Shown: positions 9,593-21,488 of the stretch, piece after piece
Position numbering within the stretch: the stretch's first letter is position 1
Layout of the letters: every line of letters begins with the position of its first letter
DNA from: Kordia sp.
GTDB taxonomy: Bacteria > Bacteroidota > Bacteroidia > Flavobacteriales > Flavobacteriaceae
Direction: 5' to 3'
Assembly: GCF_022447245.1 (NCBI RefSeq)
Contig: NZ_JAKVBC010000003.1
Span: forward strand, 62,001 to 126,000
DNA: 64,000 nt
Notes under the pieces: model-generated
The model's database searches: none
What the model was told of the DNA's origin: nothing
The model's input: only the letters and a program-made list of their open reading frames with translations
Program-made: the position numbers and the translations under genes

Positions 9593-10393
9593 TTAGTTTA
9601 AAATTTCATCCAAGGCTTTAAAATACTCAGGAAAACTGATTAGGTTATTGTGTTCGCCATTTTCAATGGTGTAAAACTTTTTAGTGTCACTACCCGATTT
9701 TTTATAAAGCTCTTGCCCATGTTCATAAGGAACAACAACATCACTTGTTCCATGAATCATATACGTAGGCATTGAAATTTTTTGAATATTTTGAATGTTC
9801 TGAAAAGGATATTTCAACAACCATTTTAGCGGCAAAAACCAAAAACGCTTCTTCCCTATTTCGTATACACTTGTAAACGTGGATTCTAGCAATAGTAATT
9901 TTGCATTGCGCTTTATTGCTGTATGTGTAGCAAACGCGCCTCCTAGTGAACGTCCAAAGATGGTAATTTCTTCTTCTGAAAATTTTGTTTTGGCATAATC
10001 ATAAAATAATAATGCATCTTCTAACATCATTTGATGACTGCGTTTCCCCATACTTTTACCGTAACCACGATAATCCATAATTACGACATCATACTTGTAT
10101 TTTGAAGATAATTGCTCTGCCCATTCTCCCCAATATTCCAGCGTACGAGCATTTCCATGAAAATATAAAAGTACACCTTTTGGATTTTCTTGTTTGTAGT
10201 GCAAACCATGTAAAACTGCATCATCAGAAGCTTTTAGATAGATTTCTTCAAAAGCTAAAGAAGATGTAAACACATGATCTTGCGGCAAGGTTTCACTGTG
10301 GAATATTATTTTTTCTTGAAAAGCGAGTAACATAAAAATTATGAGCAAATATAATGCAATCAGTGAAATAACAATACGTTTGATAAATTTCAT
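9593..10393 (-). CDS. Membrane-anchored alpha/beta hydrolase (downstream paralogue)
   Basis: A 266-residue serine hydrolase with an N-terminal membrane anchor (residues 5-25). The nucleophile elbow is FGRSLGG (Ser149), the oxyanion-side strand is LYFHGNARTL, the aspartate is probably in HGTSDVVVPYEHG and the histidine in NGEHNNL. This is the layout of YqkD/BEM46-like esterases whose substrates are unknown. Its start codon directly follows the stop of its paralogue at 10394 (TAA then ATG), so the two are translated from one message. The pair arose by tandem duplication: anchors, MDYRGYGKS(x)GKR and the elbow align without gaps. Confidence 0.88.
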   Translation of the reverse strand: MKFIKRIVISLIALYLLIIFMLLAFQEKIIFHSETLPQDHVFTSSLAFEEIYLKASDDAVLHGLHYKQENPKGVLLYFHGNARTLEYWGEWAEQLSSKYKYDVVIMDYRGYGKSMGKRSHQMMLEDALLFYDYAKTKFSEEEITIFGRSLGGAFATHTAIKRNAKLLLLESTFTSVYEIGKKRFWFLPLKWLLKYPFQNIQNIQKISMPTYMIHGTSDVVVPYEHGQELYKKSGSDTKKFYTIENGEHNNLISFPEYFKALDEILN

Positions 10394-11254
10394 TTAGGCT
10401 TTTTTTCTTCTAAAGTTCAAACTAGAGTTTTTTGGATCTATTTCTTTAGGCAATTCTGAATGCAAAATTTCTTCTAAAAAACGATGGTATTGCGGAAAAG
10501 TATGCAAATTGTTGTGTCCGCCATCAATTACGGGATATAATCGTGTCCATTTTGGATTTATTTTAGACAATTTCACGCTAGTTTTGAATGGAATGAGTTT
10601 ATCACTAGTTCCATGTATTATTTTGATTGGACATTTTACATATTCAATCCAACGATATGTCTTTACTGGAAACCTCAGAATCAGAGACATAGGCATGATT
10701 GGCAAAAAACGTTTTGTTATGTGTTTTACACTATAATAAGGCGCATCTAAGATTAGTAAGCGTGGATTATTACTTGAAGCCAATTTTGCAGCAAATCCAG
10801 AGCCTAACGACCTTCCATACAAAGTTATATATTGTTCGTCTACTTGTTCTTTTAAACGATCGTACACGTGCTGTAAATCCTTTTTGATGCCTGCTTCGGT
10901 CCGTTTTCCTGTACTTTTTCCGTAGCCGCGATAATCTACCATTAATACATCAAAACCGTGACGTGTAAAATCGACTGCAAATTTTCCCCAACCTTTAATG
11001 CTTCTTGAGTTTCCTTTTAAATATAAAACCACTCCTTTGGGTCTACGGACCTTAAAATGAATTCCATTGATATTTACACCTGGATCGACTTCAATATTAT
11101 ATTCGTCAAAAATTTGATTCTCATAATTAAATTCAAAATCGCTTGGAAGTTTTTCAGCTTTGAAGATAAAACGTTCTTGTAAAAAGTACAATACTACATT
11201 TGCAATGATGTAAATGATGATAAATATTATAATTCCTAGTGTCCAATATGACAT
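10394..11254 (-). CDS. Membrane-anchored alpha/beta hydrolase (upstream paralogue)
   Basis: A 286-residue paralogue of the next gene. It has an N-terminal anchor (about 5-27), VDYRGYGKSTGKR, and the elbow YGRSLGS with Ser149. The second glycine of GxSxGG is serine here, and the oxyanion strand reads LYLKGNSRS rather than LYFHGNART. The histidine of the usual HG is thus lysine, which may change specificity. The acid and base residues are likely in HGTSDKLIPF and GGHNNLH. It is first in a two-gene operon. The C-terminal 20 residues beyond the fold are basic (FRRKKA). Confidence 0.87.
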   Translation of the reverse strand: MSYWTLGIIIFIIIYIIANVVLYFLQERFIFKAEKLPSDFEFNYENQIFDEYNIEVDPGVNINGIHFKVRRPKGVVLYLKGNSRSIKGWGKFAVDFTRHGFDVLMVDYRGYGKSTGKRTEAGIKKDLQHVYDRLKEQVDEQYITLYGRSLGSGFAAKLASSNNPRLLILDAPYYSVKHITKRFLPIMPMSLILRFPVKTYRWIEYVKCPIKIIHGTSDKLIPFKTSVKLSKINPKWTRLYPVIDGGHNNLHTFPQYHRFLEEILHSELPKEIDPKNSSLNFRRKKA

Positions 11255-11434: not shown

Positions 11435-11623
11435 ATGAAAAAAAGTAAATTGAAAAATCTTGCATTAAGCAAAAAAACAGTTTCTAGTTTAACAACAAAA
11501 GTATTAGGAGGCGCTGCAGCGAGTAGCAAAAGTTTCCGTTTGGCTGATTGCCCTGCTCCAGTAACTCAAAGACAAACTTGCCAATATTCTTGCGAGAAGA
11601 AAAGTTGTTATTGCATGGACTAA
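11435..11623 (+). CDS. Orphan GG-leader RiPP precursor (class I lanthipeptide-like)
   Basis: A 62-residue peptide from ATG 11435. The frame is open from a TTG at 11294, but that extension is low-complexity Lys/Phe sequence. The leader, MKKSKLKNLALSKKTVSSLT then TKVLGG (residues 1-26), fits the Bacteroidetes pattern MKK-xx-L-xx-L-x-L-x-K-K-(T/S)-(V/I)-S ending in GG, where a C39-type protease is expected to cut. The 36-residue core has five cysteines in DC, TC, SC, SC and YC and several Ser/Thr, suitable for thioether or disulfide linkage. No LanB, LanC, C39 or transporter gene is nearby, so modification, if any, acts in trans. A strong UUCG-loop terminator follows. Confidence 0.75.
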   Translation: MKKSKLKNLALSKKTVSSLTTKVLGGAAASSKSFRLADCPAPVTQRQTCQYSCEKKSCYCMD

Positions 11624-12340: not shown

Positions 12341-13498
12341 CTATTTCAAATTCTCTAAAATAAAATCTACCGTTTTATTGGTATTGTTGTTTACAATGTA
12401 TGAATCCGTGATGTGTTTTGAATCAACAGCAAATCCATTTTTCGCTAATGATTCAATGTTTTCAAGATAATTTAATGAAATTTTACCACGCAATAATGGC
12501 TTCATATCTTTTCCAGATTTGTGGTAATCGTATACTTTTTTTAATCCAGTGAGATATAAGTAGTCTTTGGTAAATCCACCACCACGATGTGCCCTAGTAG
12601 ATATATTAAATGCAGTTTCACGATCTAAATCGTAGGTATTTACAAACAAGCGGAATGTTTTGGAGAATGAATATCCTTTTGCCAAACTATCTACTGCAAT
12701 CACGCGATATGCTAATTCTTTTAAGCGCTTTACCGTCAAATTGTTACTCATATATTCTGAAAAAACAGCCAAACCTTCCTGAGTTTCTTCATAGTTAGGA
12801 AAACCATTTGCAAATATTTTAAGTGGATGTAACAATCCGTTCATGGTCGTTACCATGTGTACTCCAATTTCATGATTGGTCAATACGGCAATTTCATTTT
12901 TAGAAAAAATATGCTTCTCATTGATCACCAGCGTTTTGATGTTGTTCAACACCATTGCAATGGCACTCATGTCCTTAGAAAACTTGATTTGATATGAAAA
13001 ATCATATTGTTTTGAATATTCTCGGAACAATTCTTCTGTCTTTTGAGCACTATATTTTGGTTGAAATTGTGTATCACTTTCATCCTCTTCATCAAAATGC
13101 AGAATAAATTTCGCATTTTCTACATCTTGTTCGGTTGGCGTTCCAAAAGAACGCAAACTATTGTAGTAAAATTTACGCTTTGTTCCTATAGTTTCTATGC
13201 ACTGAATTAGTCCTGAATACGCATAAATTATATCTTCATAAAGTGCTCTGGTAGATTCATCTTCAATTTTCTCAATAGGCTGTTCAAAAAGTTCTCTATG
13301 CAAATGAAAACGATCAAAATCTATTTTTGGGTAGACAAATTTAGGATCGGTAAGGTATTTTGATTGGAAGAATTTTTGTTTTTCTTCCTCCATATTTATC
13401 GGATTGACATAACTTAGCAACTCCACTTTCTTTACTAAGTCATCAATATTTTTATCTATTTCAAAAAGCACTTTACTCGCTACATTGATATCATTCAT
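12341..13498 (-). CDS. DUF1704 / QEGLA-motif metallopeptidase (MATCAP-like)
   Basis: A 385-residue member of the family named flavohemoglobin expression-modulating QEGLA motif protein. The zinc signature is HEIGVH at residues 209-214 (an HExxxH motif) and the name-giving QEGLA is at 240-244, which probably supplies the third ligand. The family is homologous to eukaryotic MATCAP tubulin tyrosine carboxypeptidases, so a carboxypeptidase activity on a terminal residue is a reasonable inference. There is no signal peptide. It is the last gene of a tightly spaced operon with an ATP-grasp ligase and an N-formylglutamate amidohydrolase-like enzyme (18 bases after the latter), which suggests it trims the product of the ligase. 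Confidence 0.88.
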   Translation of the reverse strand: MNDINVASKVLFEIDKNIDDLVKKVELLSYVNPINMEEEKQKFFQSKYLTDPKFVYPKIDFDRFHLHRELFEQPIEKIEDESTRALYEDIIYAYSGLIQCIETIGTKRKFYYNSLRSFGTPTEQDVENAKFILHFDEEDESDTQFQPKYSAQKTEELFREYSKQYDFSYQIKFSKDMSAIAMVLNNIKTLVINEKHIFSKNEIAVLTNHEIGVHMVTTMNGLLHPLKIFANGFPNYEETQEGLAVFSEYMSNNLTVKRLKELAYRVIAVDSLAKGYSFSKTFRLFVNTYDLDRETAFNISTRAHRGGGFTKDYLYLTGLKKVYDYHKSGKDMKPLLRGKISLNYLENIESLAKNGFAVDSKHITDSYIVNNNTNKTVDFILENLK

Positions 13499-13516
13499 TC
13501 GTACTATGTTCTTTTC

Positions 13517-14344
13517 TTAGCTATGTTTTTGGAAAAAGTCATCTGCATGTTGTGGAACAAGCGTTTTTAGGGCTTCTTCTAAGGCAGATACAACTTCGGG
13601 GAACATGATTTGATTAATTTCGTCGCAATATATCTTTTTTACTTCAGTTGCCAAAACTAAGGTGTTGCTAAAATGCTGTGTAATAAATTTTAAAAAGTAT
13701 CCATTTCCTTGAAACGTATCATTTATTTTAGAAGAGGAAGCAATTCCGTTTGGCAATTTGATTTCTGAAAGCATTGTACGCCAAGATTCAATAAGTTCAC
13801 CAAAACGCTCATTATCAACATTTCCTGTTCCTAAATTGAAGGTTGGCACTTCTCGCTCCCAACGTTTCCAATTGTATGAATGCATATCATATACAACGCA
13901 AACACCAAATTTTTCTTCCAGTTTTGCAATTAACACATGTACAACTTTATAAAAGTTAGCATGTTTATCCAAACTCTTCTGTTTCATGTCGGCTGGCGGT
14001 GGAGAATGCCATAATTGTTTTCCCCATGCATCTTCATAAATAGCACTTTCTGGCGCGCGATTTAAGTCATATTCAAAACGAGAATCCATTCCGGCAATGA
14101 CAATGGGATGTGTTTGTACCATTTCTTTAGTTGCAGGATCTTCTTCAAACCAGCGTTCATATTCGGTATGAATACAATTCTCCCAAAGTTCACGTCTAAA
14201 TTGATGTCCATCATGTACCGCTCCACAAGCATAAGGTACATATTTGCCAATTTTTATCGTAAAAGAATAATCGGCTGAAACAGCTTCAAATAGCTCTTCT
14301 TGTTGAATTTTTGAAATGATTTCGTCAATGGTTAGTCTTTTCAT
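13517..14344 (-). CDS. N-formylglutamate amidohydrolase-like protein
   Basis: A 275-residue FGase-family (PF05013-type) hydrolase. Metal-site blocks are AVHDGHQFR (residues 42-50), DSRFEYDLNR (87-96) and YDMHSYNW (152-159). The known members hydrolyse N-formylglutamate in histidine breakdown, or other N-acyl amino acids. No hut genes are nearby, so the histidine pathway is unlikely here. Its setting between small membrane proteins and the DUF1704 peptidase in an ATP-grasp operon suggests hydrolysis of an amide-linked amino acid conjugate. The sequence has no signal peptide. Confidence 0.87.
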   Translation of the reverse strand: MKRLTIDEIISKIQQEELFEAVSADYSFTIKIGKYVPYACGAVHDGHQFRRELWENCIHTEYERWFEEDPATKEMVQTHPIVIAGMDSRFEYDLNRAPESAIYEDAWGKQLWHSPPPADMKQKSLDKHANFYKVVHVLIAKLEEKFGVCVVYDMHSYNWKRWEREVPTFNLGTGNVDNERFGELIESWRTMLSEIKLPNGIASSSKINDTFQGNGYFLKFITQHFSNTLVLATEVKKIYCDEINQIMFPEVVSALEEALKTLVPQHADDFFQKHS

Positions 14345-14360
14345 ACATCTATTACTTATG

Positions 14361-14486
14361 TTATACTATTGGTCGTTTTGATCTAAATAATTTTATGTCA
14401 GCACATTTATATTCATACTCATATTGATTTTCCACTTTAAAATCAATTTTATAATCATAATCATACAATGCCAATAAATTATCCAT
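14361..14486 (-). CDS. 41-residue ORF overlapping the stop of the preceding gene
   Basis: ATG 14484-14486 overlaps the end of the 137-residue gene (the bases ATGGATAA contain both the new start and the old stop). The frame runs 41 codons to TAA, beginning MDNLLALYDYDYKIDF and ending FRSKRPIV. It is rich in Tyr, Asp, Glu and Lys with one Cys. The overlap is typical of translational coupling, and the ORF fills an otherwise empty gap of about 130 bases before the next gene in a tightly packed operon. No homologue is known to me, so whether it is expressed is uncertain. Confidence 0.4.
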   Translation of the reverse strand: MDNLLALYDYDYKIDFKVENQYEYEYKCADIKLFRSKRPIV

Positions 14487-14892
14487 TTCTTTTTTTTTGA
14501 GATTTGACTACACTGTGAGCATTTGTGTATTTGATATAAGGTGTAAAGGCATATCCTATAAATCCCATTCCAAAGGAAATTCCAATTAGACTTCCCGTAG
14601 AAATCCAACCTGCTTCAAATAATTTTTGTGTAAAATAAATATCTGCTAAAATGATCGCAACTCCAACAATTGAATACAAAATTAAATGCCTTATTACTTT
14701 AGATTTTTGTTCTTGTAAGTCCTTGTCTTCTAAGTTTATTTTTGCAATCTCCTCTTTAGCGTTTTCATCAAATTCAATTTTAGGGCATTTTCTAATAAAA
14801 TCTGCTTTTTCATGTGTAATTCCACATAAATTACCAGTTGTAAAGTCAAACTTTTTATGCTCACAAAAAGTACAATGCCTAGAAATTTCCAC
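14479..14892 (-). CDS. Small membrane protein with an N-terminal Cys-rich knuckle
   Basis: A 137-residue protein. The N-terminus, HCTFCEHKKFDFTTGNLCG, followed by KCPKIEF, has four cysteines spaced like a zinc ribbon (CxxC, then C and C). Two transmembrane segments follow (about residues 66-87 and 93-116), with a basic tail QKKRNG. Similar small proteins are common in Flavobacteria and unnamed. It is six bases downstream of the 134-residue gene in the ATP-grasp operon, so it probably acts with that pathway or is simply co-transcribed. Confidence 0.7.
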   Translation of the reverse strand: MEISRHCTFCEHKKFDFTTGNLCGITHEKADFIRKCPKIEFDENAKEEIAKINLEDKDLQEQKSKVIRHLILYSIVGVAIILADIYFTQKLFEAGWISTGSLIGISFGMGFIGYAFTPYIKYTNAHSVVKSQKKRNG

Positions 14893-14898
14893 GTATTC

Positions 14899-15303
14899 TT
14901 ATTTAATAGTTATGAGTTTGATACTTTTTTTAACAATATAGGCTCCTTTTTGATCTCGAGAAACCTGCACATCTGCTGTATACTCTAAGTTATTCTTTTT
15001 TAGTAATGATTCCAACTCTCGAAGTTTTTTTTCATGAATATCAATTTGCTTTTTGCATTGTTGTATAGGTCTAAAAGCTATGGCCAATAAAATTCCTCCC
15101 GCAGCAATTGTTGCTTGAAATATTGGAAATGTTGTCCATTCAGCCGAACTTCCATACGCACCTAAGCCAATAATTGCAAGTGCAATGATTCCCAATGTGC
15201 TTCCTTTTATAAGTAATTCTCTTTGTTTTAGTTTGAGTTTCTCTATTTCCACAAGGTTATTGAGGACTTCTACACTAAAATATTCTTTATCTTCTTTCTC
15301 CAT
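14899..15303 (-). CDS. Small membrane protein with flanking coiled coils
   Basis: A 134-residue protein. An amphipathic helix (VEVLNNLVEIEKLKLKQREL, residues 12-31) leads into two closely spaced transmembrane segments (about 33-52 and 59-78). A second coiled-coil stretch (QCKKQIDIHEKKLRELESLL) and a short beta-rich tail follow. Not recognised as a named family. It sits 39 bases downstream of the sulfurtransferase and seven bases upstream of another two-TM protein; the pair may form a membrane complex, which is inference from adjacency only. Confidence 0.65.
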   Translation of the reverse strand: MEKEDKEYFSVEVLNNLVEIEKLKLKQRELLIKGSTLGIIALAIIGLGAYGSSAEWTTFPIFQATIAAGGILLAIAFRPIQQCKKQIDIHEKKLRELESLLKKNNLEYTADVQVSRDQKGAYIVKKSIKLITIK

Positions 15304-15342
15304 TATACTATGTGGTAGTTATGAATCATTATGATGATTTAA

Positions 15343-16170
15343 TTATTCTTTATACAAACTTCCCCATTCCGTCCATGAACCATCATATACACTGTATTTT
15401 TTAAAACCTACATGTTCCGCAGCTAATGCTAAAATACAAGCGGTAATTCCTGATCCACAAGAAAATATAAATGATGAATCGTCTTTATGAAATGATTCAA
15501 AAATATCTAGAAGCGCTGTTTTTAGTTTGAATGTATGATTGTGCAAAAGTTTGGAATATGGAAGGTTATGTGACGTTGGAATTTGTCCACTTCGTAAACC
15601 TTTTCTTGGTTCTGAAATTTTTCCTGTAAATCTTCCTTCTGAGCGTGCATCAAGAATTGTACTTTTGGTGTTGTTTATTTCTTGAAGCATTTCTGAATAA
15701 TTCCTAAAGAGATATAGATGATCTTTTCCTTGAAAGTTTCCCTTATTTCCTCGATATGTTTTTTTACTTTCTAGCAGATAGTTTTCCGCTTTCCATGCGG
15801 GAAATCCGCCATCTAAGACTGCAATATTGTCAAATCCCATTGCTTTGAACATATACCAAACTCTAGGTGAGGCATAAATCCCCAATTCATCGTATACAAC
15901 AATAGCGCTTTCTTGATTGATTCCTAGTGCTTGGGCTTTTTCAGTAAACGCTTCTACAGAAATCATCGTGTTTGGAAATGGAGCATCTATAACGCTGAAT
16001 ACTTTTTTTATGTCAAAAAAACGTGCATTTGGAATTTGAGTAGTTTCTGCAGCTTTATCAGCATCTACAACTCTTGATATTGTACCATTTAAAACAATAA
16101 GATTGGTTGCATGAATATGTTCTTGCAACCAATCTACAGATACTATTGAATTTGTAATTTGTAGTAGCAT
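15343..16170 (-). CDS. sseA: 3-mercaptopyruvate sulfurtransferase-like (tandem rhodanese)
   Basis: A 275-residue protein with two rhodanese domains (about 10-130, inactive, and 150-275, catalytic). The catalytic loop is SCGSGITACI with the sulfur-carrying cysteine at 238. The CGSGxTA form is that of mercaptopyruvate sulfurtransferases, not the CRxGxR form of thiosulfate sulfurtransferases. The conserved HIPGA equivalent reads QIPNARFFD. Its start overlaps the stop of the ATP-grasp gene by one base (TAATG), so the two are translationally coupled. That coupling hints at a sulfur-linked step, such as a cysteine or thiol-containing conjugate, in this operon. Confidence 0.85.
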   Translation of the reverse strand: MLLQITNSIVSVDWLQEHIHATNLIVLNGTISRVVDADKAAETTQIPNARFFDIKKVFSVIDAPFPNTMISVEAFTEKAQALGINQESAIVVYDELGIYASPRVWYMFKAMGFDNIAVLDGGFPAWKAENYLLESKKTYRGNKGNFQGKDHLYLFRNYSEMLQEINNTKSTILDARSEGRFTGKISEPRKGLRSGQIPTSHNLPYSKLLHNHTFKLKTALLDIFESFHKDDSSFIFSCGSGITACILALAAEHVGFKKYSVYDGSWTEWGSLYKE

Positions 16171-17201
16171 TAGGCGTCATCAACAGCTTTACGCAATCGT
16201 ACGCGTCGGTCAAATGCTTGTAATTTATCGACAACTTTACTTTCTATAAAATCGATTACTTTTTCCTGTACTTTCGCTTTGTACACTTTATTGATATAGG
16301 TAATTCCTCCTGGAGACATTACATTAACTTCTACTAATTTTCCACCAATCACATCAATTCCGACAAAATAGAGTCCATCATTCACTAATTTTGGACCAAT
16401 TTGTTTACACAAGGCTTTTTCTGCTTTCGTAAGCGAGTGTTTTTGCACACTTCCGCCAGCACTGACATTGGATCTATGATCATCGGAACCTGGTACGCGT
16501 TTCATAGCTCCAATTGGCTCGCCATTTAGCAACAAAATACGAACATCTCCTTGATCTGCTCCTTCGATATAATCTTGAAGAATTACATAATTTGACGTTC
16601 CATCGCTATTTGTTATATAGAAATCTAACAACGATTTAATATTGTTCATCGCCGATTTTTCTATTAAAATAACTCCAGAACCTCCAAAGCCATTCAAAGG
16701 TTTCAAAATCATTTTATCCGCTTTCGATTCTTTAATTTGCTGAACTAAATAGTCTTTATTTTTAGAAACATGCGTATTTGGAATAATGTTACTATGTGCA
16801 TCTCCAAAAGCTGCTGTATAAAGCTTATTGTTAGCTTCTCGCATTCCTTGAAGTGAGTTTACAATAAAGACATCATCTTTTACAGAATCAAGAAAATTAA
16901 GCATGATTGGGTCAAGTGGCGGATTTGCTCGCATAAAAATTACATCAAATCCTGCTAATGGCAACATTTCTTCTCTCAATTGTGCTTTTGAATAAAATGA
17001 TTTTAAGGTACTGGGCACTTTATCCATTCGGGCGATTACATTACAAAAAGCATTGGTAACACTATCTCTAATCGTTAAATTAGATGGTGTACACATGGCT
17101 ACTCCATGTCCTCGTTTAACACATTCTTTAATTAAAGCTAAACTTGTATCGTTTTCTGGATCAATATCTTCCCAAGGATACATTAAAAAACAGATATTCA
17201 T
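16170..17201 (-). CDS. ATP-grasp ligase of the glutathione synthetase type
   Basis: A 343-residue ligase. It has the GshB-like RANPPLD block (91-97), the ATP-binding loop KPLNGFGGSGV (167-177), DVRILLLNGEPIGAMKRVP (219-237) and the Mg-binding end GIDVIGGKLVEVNVMSPGG (281-299). ATP-grasp enzymes join a carboxylate to an amine through an acyl phosphate. True GshB makes glutathione from gamma-glutamylcysteine and glycine, but no gshA is adjacent, so the substrate is uncertain. It is the first gene of a seven-ORF minus-strand operon with a sulfurtransferase, an amidohydrolase and a carboxypeptidase-like protein. That set points to synthesis and turnover of a small amide-linked conjugate. Confidence 0.88.
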   Translation of the reverse strand: MNICFLMYPWEDIDPENDTSLALIKECVKRGHGVAMCTPSNLTIRDSVTNAFCNVIARMDKVPSTLKSFYSKAQLREEMLPLAGFDVIFMRANPPLDPIMLNFLDSVKDDVFIVNSLQGMREANNKLYTAAFGDAHSNIIPNTHVSKNKDYLVQQIKESKADKMILKPLNGFGGSGVILIEKSAMNNIKSLLDFYITNSDGTSNYVILQDYIEGADQGDVRILLLNGEPIGAMKRVPGSDDHRSNVSAGGSVQKHSLTKAEKALCKQIGPKLVNDGLYFVGIDVIGGKLVEVNVMSPGGITYINKVYKAKVQEKVIDFIESKVVDKLQAFDRRVRLRKAVDDA

Positions 17202-20993: not shown

Positions 20994-21488
20994 ATGGATC
21001 TTAATCTGAATCAACTTAAAACAGAGATTTATGATAATTGTTCTTCCGAAATTTCAAACTTCACAATTGAATCAGAAGGTAAAGAATACTACGCTTCTCG
21101 ATTTCAGCTTAATGGACTAAACATTTTAAGTAGAAACGCTAAAATAACACCAAAAAAAGTTGGACAGTTTGTAACTTTTTGGAAACGAAACGAGCATGGA
21201 ATAACTGCTCCTTTTGAAACATCTGATTGTATTGACTTTTATATTGTAAACGTTCGAACTGAAAATCATTTTGGACAATTTGTCTTCTCAAAAGCGATAC
21301 TTATCAAAAAAGGAATTATTTCAACTGGAAAGAAAGAAGGAAAAAGAGGTTTTCTAGTCTATCCTAAATGGGATATTCCAAACAATAAACATGCTGAACA
21401 AACTCAGAAATGGCAATTGGATTATTTTTATGAAATAAACACTACTACAGACTTAAAAAGAGTATCAGAGCTATACGGAGTTGGATAA
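20994..21488 (+). CDS. MepB family protein
   Basis: A 164-residue protein with the features of the MepB family: ESEGKEYYASRFQLNG near residue 30, KKVGQFVTFWKR (53-64) and HFGQFVFSKAILIKKGI (about 93-109). The near-C-terminal GFLVYPKWDIPNNKHAEQTQKWQLDYF (residues 122-148) is the most conserved part. MepB is named for a gene next to the MepA efflux pump in Staphylococcus; its biochemical function is not known. It stands alone here with no efflux gene beside it. It may be a transferred accessory gene, but codon use looks native. Confidence 0.82.
   Translation: MDLNLNQLKTEIYDNCSSEISNFTIESEGKEYYASRFQLNGLNILSRNAKITPKKVGQFVTFWKRNEHGITAPFETSDCIDFYIVNVRTENHFGQFVFSKAILIKKGIISTGKKEGKRGFLVYPKWDIPNNKHAEQTQKWQLDYFYEINTTTDLKRVSELYGVG

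Follow-up and report, generated by a model that had tools for sequence, protein, structure and literature searches.

The coupling of an ATP-grasp ligase to a trimming hydrolase is a known principle. N-acetylaspartylglutamate metabolism in animals employs a ligase (RIMKL), a C-terminal glutamate carboxypeptidase (GCPII) and aspartoacylase, and known members of the FGase (N-formylglutamate amidohydrolase) and AspA families free acidic amino acids from N-acyl forms, their substrates being small N-acyl amino acids. RimB takes off the glutamates added by RimK (accessible portion of PMC11957791), and the rlo operon, with an ATP-grasp gene among its members, encodes proteases required to survive hypo-osmotic conditions, the defects being rescued when the ATP-grasp enzyme is lost (accessible portion of PMC12239564). 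MATCAP is known from eukaryotes, as a tubulin carboxypeptidase. The human MATCAP relatives take off C-terminal Tyr, Ala and Glu and shorten polyglutamate chains on tubulin (PMC10499314, in the portion accessible, where the conservation section surveys eukaryotes only). Here, we analyzed a stretch of 64,000 nucleotides from Kordia sp. (contig NZ_JAKVBC010000003.1, positions 62,001 to 126,000; hereafter the window), in which a GshB-like ATP-grasp ligase, an FGase-family hydrolase and a MATCAP/DUF1704-family protein are encoded in one run of minus-strand genes. As judged from family membership, this triad would bring the known principle into a new combination.

With the tubulin cycle (TTL/TTLL, CCP and MATCAP/TMCP) the locus shares the MATCAP fold and catalytic motif, ATP-grasp writers (as described in the accessible portion of PMC4431377) and two kinds of trimming hydrolase; however, it is bacterial and no tubulin-like gene was noticed in the run. 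It resembles rimBK and rlo in that an ATP-grasp ligase is encoded with a protease, but the ligase is of the GshB family instead of RimK, the protease is MATCAP instead of an aspartic retropepsin (no aspartic protease family was found among the window proteins scanned with Pfam), and an FGase is added. In N-acetylaspartylglutamate metabolism, a ligase, a C-terminal carboxypeptidase and an N-deacylase likewise act on an N-acyl acidic dipeptide, although the enzymes encoded here come from other families or subfamilies. A literature search, which left most subscription journals outside its reach, found no paper naming this triad, and priority is not claimed; a 2009 survey in which Iyer and colleagues covered the neighbourhoods of amidoligases may list it.

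The gene set goes beyond chance, as the same order recurs in tens of genomes. Two genome samples were searched with the PF08014 (MATCAP) profile: 296 genomes from the phylum, of which 16 matched, and 396 from the class, of which 21 did; with 12 shared by both, 25 distinct Bacteroidota genomes resulted. A triad-type locus was present in 24 of these, the exception (G186) carrying a divergent, stand-alone MATCAP. Within the 24, a GshB-family ligase shared the run with MATCAP in 22, the two misses (G367 and G533) lying at contig ends, and an FGase, separate or fused, was found in 21. Matches to PF02955 above 160 bits occurred in 17 of the 296 genomes, that is, in 15 of the 16 with MATCAP and in two of the 280 without it (G194 and G076), and the next-best match reached 97 bits; thus, strong GshB-family matches were almost exclusive to MATCAP genomes in this sample.

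Gene neighbourhoods were then counted in the best 80 of 573 confirmed flavobacterial loci, nearly all from Flavobacteriaceae and all with the short form of MATCAP, considering genes on the same strand and upstream of MATCAP within 6 kb. FGase was found at 76 loci, GshB at 73, an SDF-family symporter at 60 and a sulfurtransferase at 35. Among the seven loci without GshB, L061 and L064 are cut by a contig end, and L065 has approximately 2.4 kb ahead of its FGase gene, with no GshB in it; the other four are considered below. The gene set also occurs in Pseudomonadota, namely in rhizobia and Photobacterium. We regard it as close to certain that ligase, FGase and MATCAP constitute one functional module. 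This is in line with an earlier interpretation made from the letters of the window (the sequence-only reading), which had placed these three genes in a shared pathway and had named a lack of co-conservation in other genomes as a finding against it; the three genes proved to be co-conserved.

The module comes in two forms. Type I, to which the window belongs, has the order GshB1, FGase, MATCAP. Type II has the order FGase, long MATCAP (about 610–690 amino acids, aa), GshB2, and was found in G002, G122, G171, G211, G231 and G603, partly in G533 (contig break), and also on plasmids of Sinorhizobium, Aminobacter, Pararhizobium, Shinella and Roseateles, in a plasmid survey covering 10 loci from 127 matching records. 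Two genomes (G103 and G118) carry GshB1, FGase, long MATCAP and GshB2 within a single run. Within type I, a single fused protein of approximately 660 aa comprises FGase and MATCAP in seven genomes (G045, G509, G562, G577, G532, G592 and G367, the last with 608 aa because it is cut by the contig start) and also in Photobacterium GJ3 and Vibrio HDW18. Further, the N-terminal extension of the long MATCAP aligned with the FGase profile over 196 columns (E 4.6e-5, probability 68%), the catalytic stretches being missing; on this one profile comparison, which is of moderate strength, it looks like a degenerate FGase domain. Fusion and domain reuse together suggest that FGase and MATCAP act on the same substrate in physical contact.

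Three genomes with long MATCAP and GshB2 (G053, G273 and G356) gave no FGase-family match genome-wide. In G053, GshB2 is followed after 90 bases by an AstE/AspA-family gene (70 bits), and in G273 such a gene is found 40 bases from GshB2 on the opposite strand (73 bits); G356 also encodes an AspA relative, for which the gene before it was tried as a GCS2 ligase and rejected, as Pfam gives CBS domains only. The three AspA proteins are mutually 39–43% identical and only distantly similar to the AspA that is paired with RimK in the window's genome. They have the D-(L/V)-N-R and D-x-H motifs in common with FGase, which is consistent with the same kind of substrate. Since other AspA genes are widespread, with AspA-family matches in 20 of the 25 MATCAP genomes, their presence alone says little and it is the position that counts as evidence. 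Replacement of FGase by AspA, combined with the known activities of both families, suggests that the substrate or product is an acidic amino acid in N-acyl form.

Both hydrolases of the window have the hallmarks of their families. The MATCAP protein carries HEIGVH at 209–214 and QEGLA at 240–244, and residues H209, E210, H214 and Q240–G242 were invariant across 16 aligned rows. Its profile matched human MATCAP in the PDB (7z5g, 3.3e-12), and with its AlphaFold model (pLDDT 91.5) Foldseek returned, at E <0.001, human MATCAP chains only (7z6s and 7z5g; TM 0.54–0.60 by query). Weaker matches were a Shewanella lipoprotein and several carboxypeptidases, which we take to be of the M32 family. The earlier assignment of DUF1704 to the MATCAP family is thus borne out by sequence and by predicted fold; the protein remains below the cut-off of the TIGR02421 'QEGLA' equivalog model (304.5 vs. 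338.65). In the FGase protein, which exceeds the PF05013 cut-off of 28.9 bits, we found the motifs HxGH, DLNR and DMHSYN and an invariant E234. The sole entry at E <0.001 for its model (pLDDT 91.5) was the N-formylglutamate amidohydrolase 2q7s (TM 0.72), followed by weak matches to M14 metallocarboxypeptidases. A PDB search with the sequence itself gave one weak match (E 0.048), and the 11-row FGase profile gave none against the PDB.

From what is directly seen (gene set, order, co-conservation, fusions and catalytic motifs) and from the predicted folds, we infer the directions of the reactions and the nature of the substrate. Our best explanation, to which we give about an even chance, is that the core is a three-enzyme module making and breaking an amide of an N-acyl, probably acidic, amino acid or short peptide. 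The ligase would use ATP to activate an acyl or peptidyl carboxylate and couple an amino acid to it. MATCAP, going by its family and fold, would remove the C-terminal amino acid, while FGase or AspA, as family and mutual replacement suggest, would split the amide and free the N-acylated amino acid. The symporter, given its position, may move free glutamate/aspartate or a dicarboxylate. The FGase/AspA families make a small soluble molecule likelier than a protein, and the logic recalls that of N-acetylaspartylglutamate. By this analogy, the substrate would most likely be soluble, either an N-acyl peptide or a conjugate of an amino acid, and may be tied to the osmotic state.

Published data bear on the physiology. 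In Photobacterium damselae at low salinity (1% NaCl), a GshB gene was up 38.4-fold, a QEGLA gene 27.5-fold and RimK 52.2-fold (accessible portion of PMC10308900). The Vibrio vulnificus genes VV2_1203 (COG3930) and VV2_1204 (glutathione synthetase) appear together in a list of genes specific to clade 2 (accessible portion of PMC3091676). With the hypo-osmotic role of rlo alongside, a low-osmolarity link of the triad is plausible but thin.

The domains of the ligase would also suit a thiol pathway, in which a true glutathione synthase and the mercaptopyruvate sulfurtransferase make or recycle a glutathione-like thiol and the hydrolases serve turnover. GSH-S_N and GSH-S_ATP are both present, the fold family is that of GshB (profile match to E. 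coli GshB, 1gsa, 4.1e-41; 186 bits with GSH-S_ATP vs. 73 with RimK), and loop Arg 233 was retained in all 13 rows of a ligase alignment. Two curated models were passed, the PRK05246 glutathione synthase model (292, cut-off 272) and the NF009110 subfamily model (469.8, cut-off 408), and a sulfurtransferase accompanies 35 of the best 80 of 573 loci. However, TIGR01380 was not reached (244.9 vs. 299.05), and K87, K209, G234 and T288 (E. coli numbering) were replaced in the 10 cluster rows of the same alignment while being kept in the three canonical ones. In a tree of 47 of the 104 collected ligases, three of them canonical, GshB1, GshB2 and canonical GshB formed three groups, each with 100/99 support, so that the window's clade stands apart from E. 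coli-type GshB. In addition, a search for the two gshA families PF04107 (GCS2) and PF04262 (Glu_cys_ligase) found neither in the window's genome (a 5.24 Mb assembly, 99.75% complete), and among 16 MATCAP genomes GCS2 matched in six and Glu_cys_ligase in none, ten being without both. No sulfurtransferase was found at 45 of the 80 loci. Plain glutathione synthesis was rejected as the simple reading on the lack of a gshA match, the separate clade, the changed residues and the TIGR01380 miss, although with PRK05246 passed a glutathione-like reaction is conceivable; we consider a thiol pathway as a whole highly improbable. The sequence-only reading had likewise held that glutathione synthesis alone would not suffice, and had named clustering with true GshB next to gshA as a finding that would speak against a shared pathway; clade and genome search both came out the other way. 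Its proposal that a conjugate is made and then trimmed stands as a sound reading for an amino-acid conjugate, whereas a thiol product finds no support, with a sulfurtransferase at fewer than half of the loci.

The same enzymes could, alternatively, write and erase protein tails, the ligase adding amino acids (glutamate or other) to a protein C-terminus or side chain, MATCAP shortening the chain and an M14-like FGase removing the last or branch residue. Trimming of tubulin polyglutamate by MATCAP relatives (PMC10499314), removal of RimK-added glutamates by RimB (PMC11957791) and the coupling of an ATP-grasp enzyme with a protease in rlo (PMC12239564) would all agree with this, in the accessible portions of these sources, as would the 52-fold rise that RimK itself shows alongside GshB and QEGLA at low salt (PMC10308900, likewise in part); two hydrolases of different fold would fit chain shortening plus branch removal. 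On the other hand, no likely substrate-protein gene stands out in the run, since, apart from SDF, GshB, MPST, FGase and MATCAP, the gene groups found at 34 or more of the best 80 loci resemble ordinary flanking genes by eye, part of them identified by search. Small N-acyl amino acids are the substrates of the FGase and AspA families, and a RimK–AspA pair exists elsewhere in the genome. We hold protein tails to be possible, although rather unlikely. Their extension to a prokaryotic counterpart of the cycle that tyrosinates and glutamylates tubulin, from which one eraser of that cycle might even stem, with a GshB-type writer, MATCAP as shortener and FGase as remover of the anchor residue, appears unlikely. 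In a mixed salvage operon, acylated amino acids or peptides would be taken up by the transporter and broken down by the peptidase and the amidohydrolase, and the ligase would have a loosely related task. The symporter does belong to the run at 60 of the 80 loci and persists with MATCAP at four loci that have neither GshB nor FGase; but the enzymes look cytoplasmic by eye, and GshB accompanies both MATCAP forms, each with its own GshB clade, which a loose link would not predict. Salvage therefore seems quite improbable to us.

Several observations weigh against a three-enzyme module acting on an N-acyl amino acid or short peptide. At L098, L099, L104 and L110, four of the best 80 of 573 loci, GshB and FGase are truly absent while SDF–MATCAP is kept, and their genomes gave no FGase match and no PF02955 match above 73.1 bits; as the two genes are missing together while MATCAP stays, MATCAP can act without them. 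Divergent MATCAPs stand alone in G186 and, within the stretches fetched, on plasmids of Legionella adelaidensis and Pseudoalteromonas, the latter (L120:5419-6699) near betIBA (glycine betaine synthesis). Against a strict triad there is also Vibrio HDW18, where the FGase–MATCAP fusion had no ligase within the 17 kb fetched. The AspA relative of G356 lies 3109 bases from GshB2 with other genes between and is a weaker case of replacement. As to function, the window's FGase scored only 20.4 bits with the TIGR02017 N-formylglutamate deformylase (HutG) model (cut-off 278.75), and its ligase passes the PRK05246 glutathione-synthase model. The salt response comes from one paper and one species, in which the GshB and QEGLA genes (RS17020 and RS17025) were taken as neighbours from their consecutive locus tags.

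Ligases also occur beside deacylases outside the triad. In the window's genome (L144:5449-7282), a RimK gene overlaps an AspA/AstE-family gene, forming a second ligase–deacylase pair, and in at least nine MATCAP genomes a RimK-like match lies 209–276 bases from an AspA match, Pfam confirmation of both covering the window's genome alone. This pair resembles the triad in placing an ATP-grasp ligase beside an AspA/AstE deacylase, but it is without MATCAP, both genes are of other subfamilies and it is located elsewhere in the genome. In three genomes (G171:C42, G186:C3 and G211:C5), an FGase match stands beside a GCS2 match, the domain matches being 359–405 bases apart, which makes a third kind of pair of a ligase with an amidohydrolase. 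RimK–AspA and GCS2–FGase pairs thus make ligase plus deacylase a recurring theme, to which the triad adds a carboxypeptidase.

The genes of the run are listed in the table. Transcription proceeds from the SDF symporter through ligase, rhodanese, membrane proteins 1 and 2 and FGase to MATCAP, with intergenic gaps of 63, −1, 39, 6, 134 and 18 bases. The sequence-only reading had described an operon of seven open reading frames (ORFs); its six named genes, their coordinates and the minus strand were correct, but six ORFs are convincing, not seven, and three more minus-strand ORFs of at least 50 aa (14062–14250, 14393–14608 and 16058–16234) overlap real genes in other frames. The TAATG junction it had noted between ligase and sulfurtransferase is there, as a one-base overlap, and the gap of 7 bases it gave between the membrane proteins measures 6. 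It had overlooked the FGase–MATCAP fusions and the symporter, which ends 63 bases ahead of the ligase on the same strand, belongs to the run in most relatives and scored 241 bits with the GltP model, below the cut-off of 638. With its counterpart in Kordia aestuariivivens, the window's MATCAP shares 88% identity.

Table. Genes of the MATCAP run in the window, in order of position
Feature	Position	Strand	Match
MATCAP/DUF1704-family zinc carboxypeptidase-like protein, short form, 385 aa	12341..13498	-	PF08014 321 bits
FGase-family hydrolase (N-formylglutamate amidohydrolase fold), 275 aa	13517..14344	-	PF05013 48.7 bits
Small membrane protein 2, 137 aa, GTG start, Cys/His-rich N-terminal stretch, one hydrophobic stretch	14479..14892	-	
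Small membrane protein 1, 134 aa, two hydrophobic stretches	14899..15303	-	
Two-domain rhodanese, 3-mercaptopyruvate sulfurtransferase (MPST)-like, 275 aa	15343..16170	-	PF00581 87.5 bits over two stretches
GshB-like ATP-grasp ligase, clade GshB1, 343 aa	16170..17201	-	PF02955 186.1 bits, PF02951 89.2 bits
SDF-family dicarboxylate/amino-acid symporter, 483 aa	17265..18716	-	PF00375 394 bits

The sulfurtransferase (NF008557, 190.7 bits, below the cut-off of 250) was rejected as a core gene on its count at the 80 loci. Neither membrane protein matched Pfam or PHROGs; membrane protein 1 had no NCBIfam match either, and membrane protein 2 only NCBIfam matches far under the cut-off. Among the BLAST matches listed for 95 loci, within 7 kb of MATCAP, membrane protein 1 had one relative (59%), in K. 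aestuariivivens (L032), and membrane protein 2 had none. A core role for the pair, as suggested by the sequence-only reading, was rejected on this count. In Tenacibaculum (L043:8809-9132), a 108-aa protein with no Pfam match over the cut-off is encoded between sulfurtransferase and FGase, and in Seonamhaeicola (L050:7930-9090) a domain similar to it by eye is fused to the sulfurtransferase.

Promoter-like sites (31 vs. 40 in shuffles) and terminator-like sites (3 vs. 3.7) showed no excess over chance, and a phage origin was rejected, as none of the six proteins from MATCAP to ligase matched PHROGs at E 0.001. A short plus-strand ORF at 11435–11620, 0.7 kb past the MATCAP gene and on the opposite strand, has a Cys-rich core and a leader resembling those of class I lanthipeptides (NF038153, 18.4 bits, below the cut-off of 22). 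Further features of the window are an adjacent pair of minus-strand alpha/beta hydrolases (9593–10393 and 10394–11254), present also in Kordia zhangzhouensis (L033), and a plus-strand MepB-like protein at 20994–21488 (PF08877, 169 bits). In other genomes, a DUF413 (MaoP) gene precedes the locus in Photobacterium GJ3 (L117:5529-5993) and Vibrio HDW18 (L112:6690-7046), and the FGase gene of Patiriisocius marinistellae (L086) is broken into two ORFs of 133 and 127 aa.

The module yields a testable prediction for genes that carry the labels 'glutathione synthase', 'N-formylglutamate amidohydrolase' and 'flavohemoglobin expression-modulating QEGLA motif protein', and the strictest curated models for these three labels are not all passed by the window's proteins. 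It also places bacterial kin of MATCAP in an operon conserved across Bacteroidota and Pseudomonadota, where the company of a predicted amide-forming ligase and a putative deacylase would give a direct handle on the role of MATCAP in bacteria.

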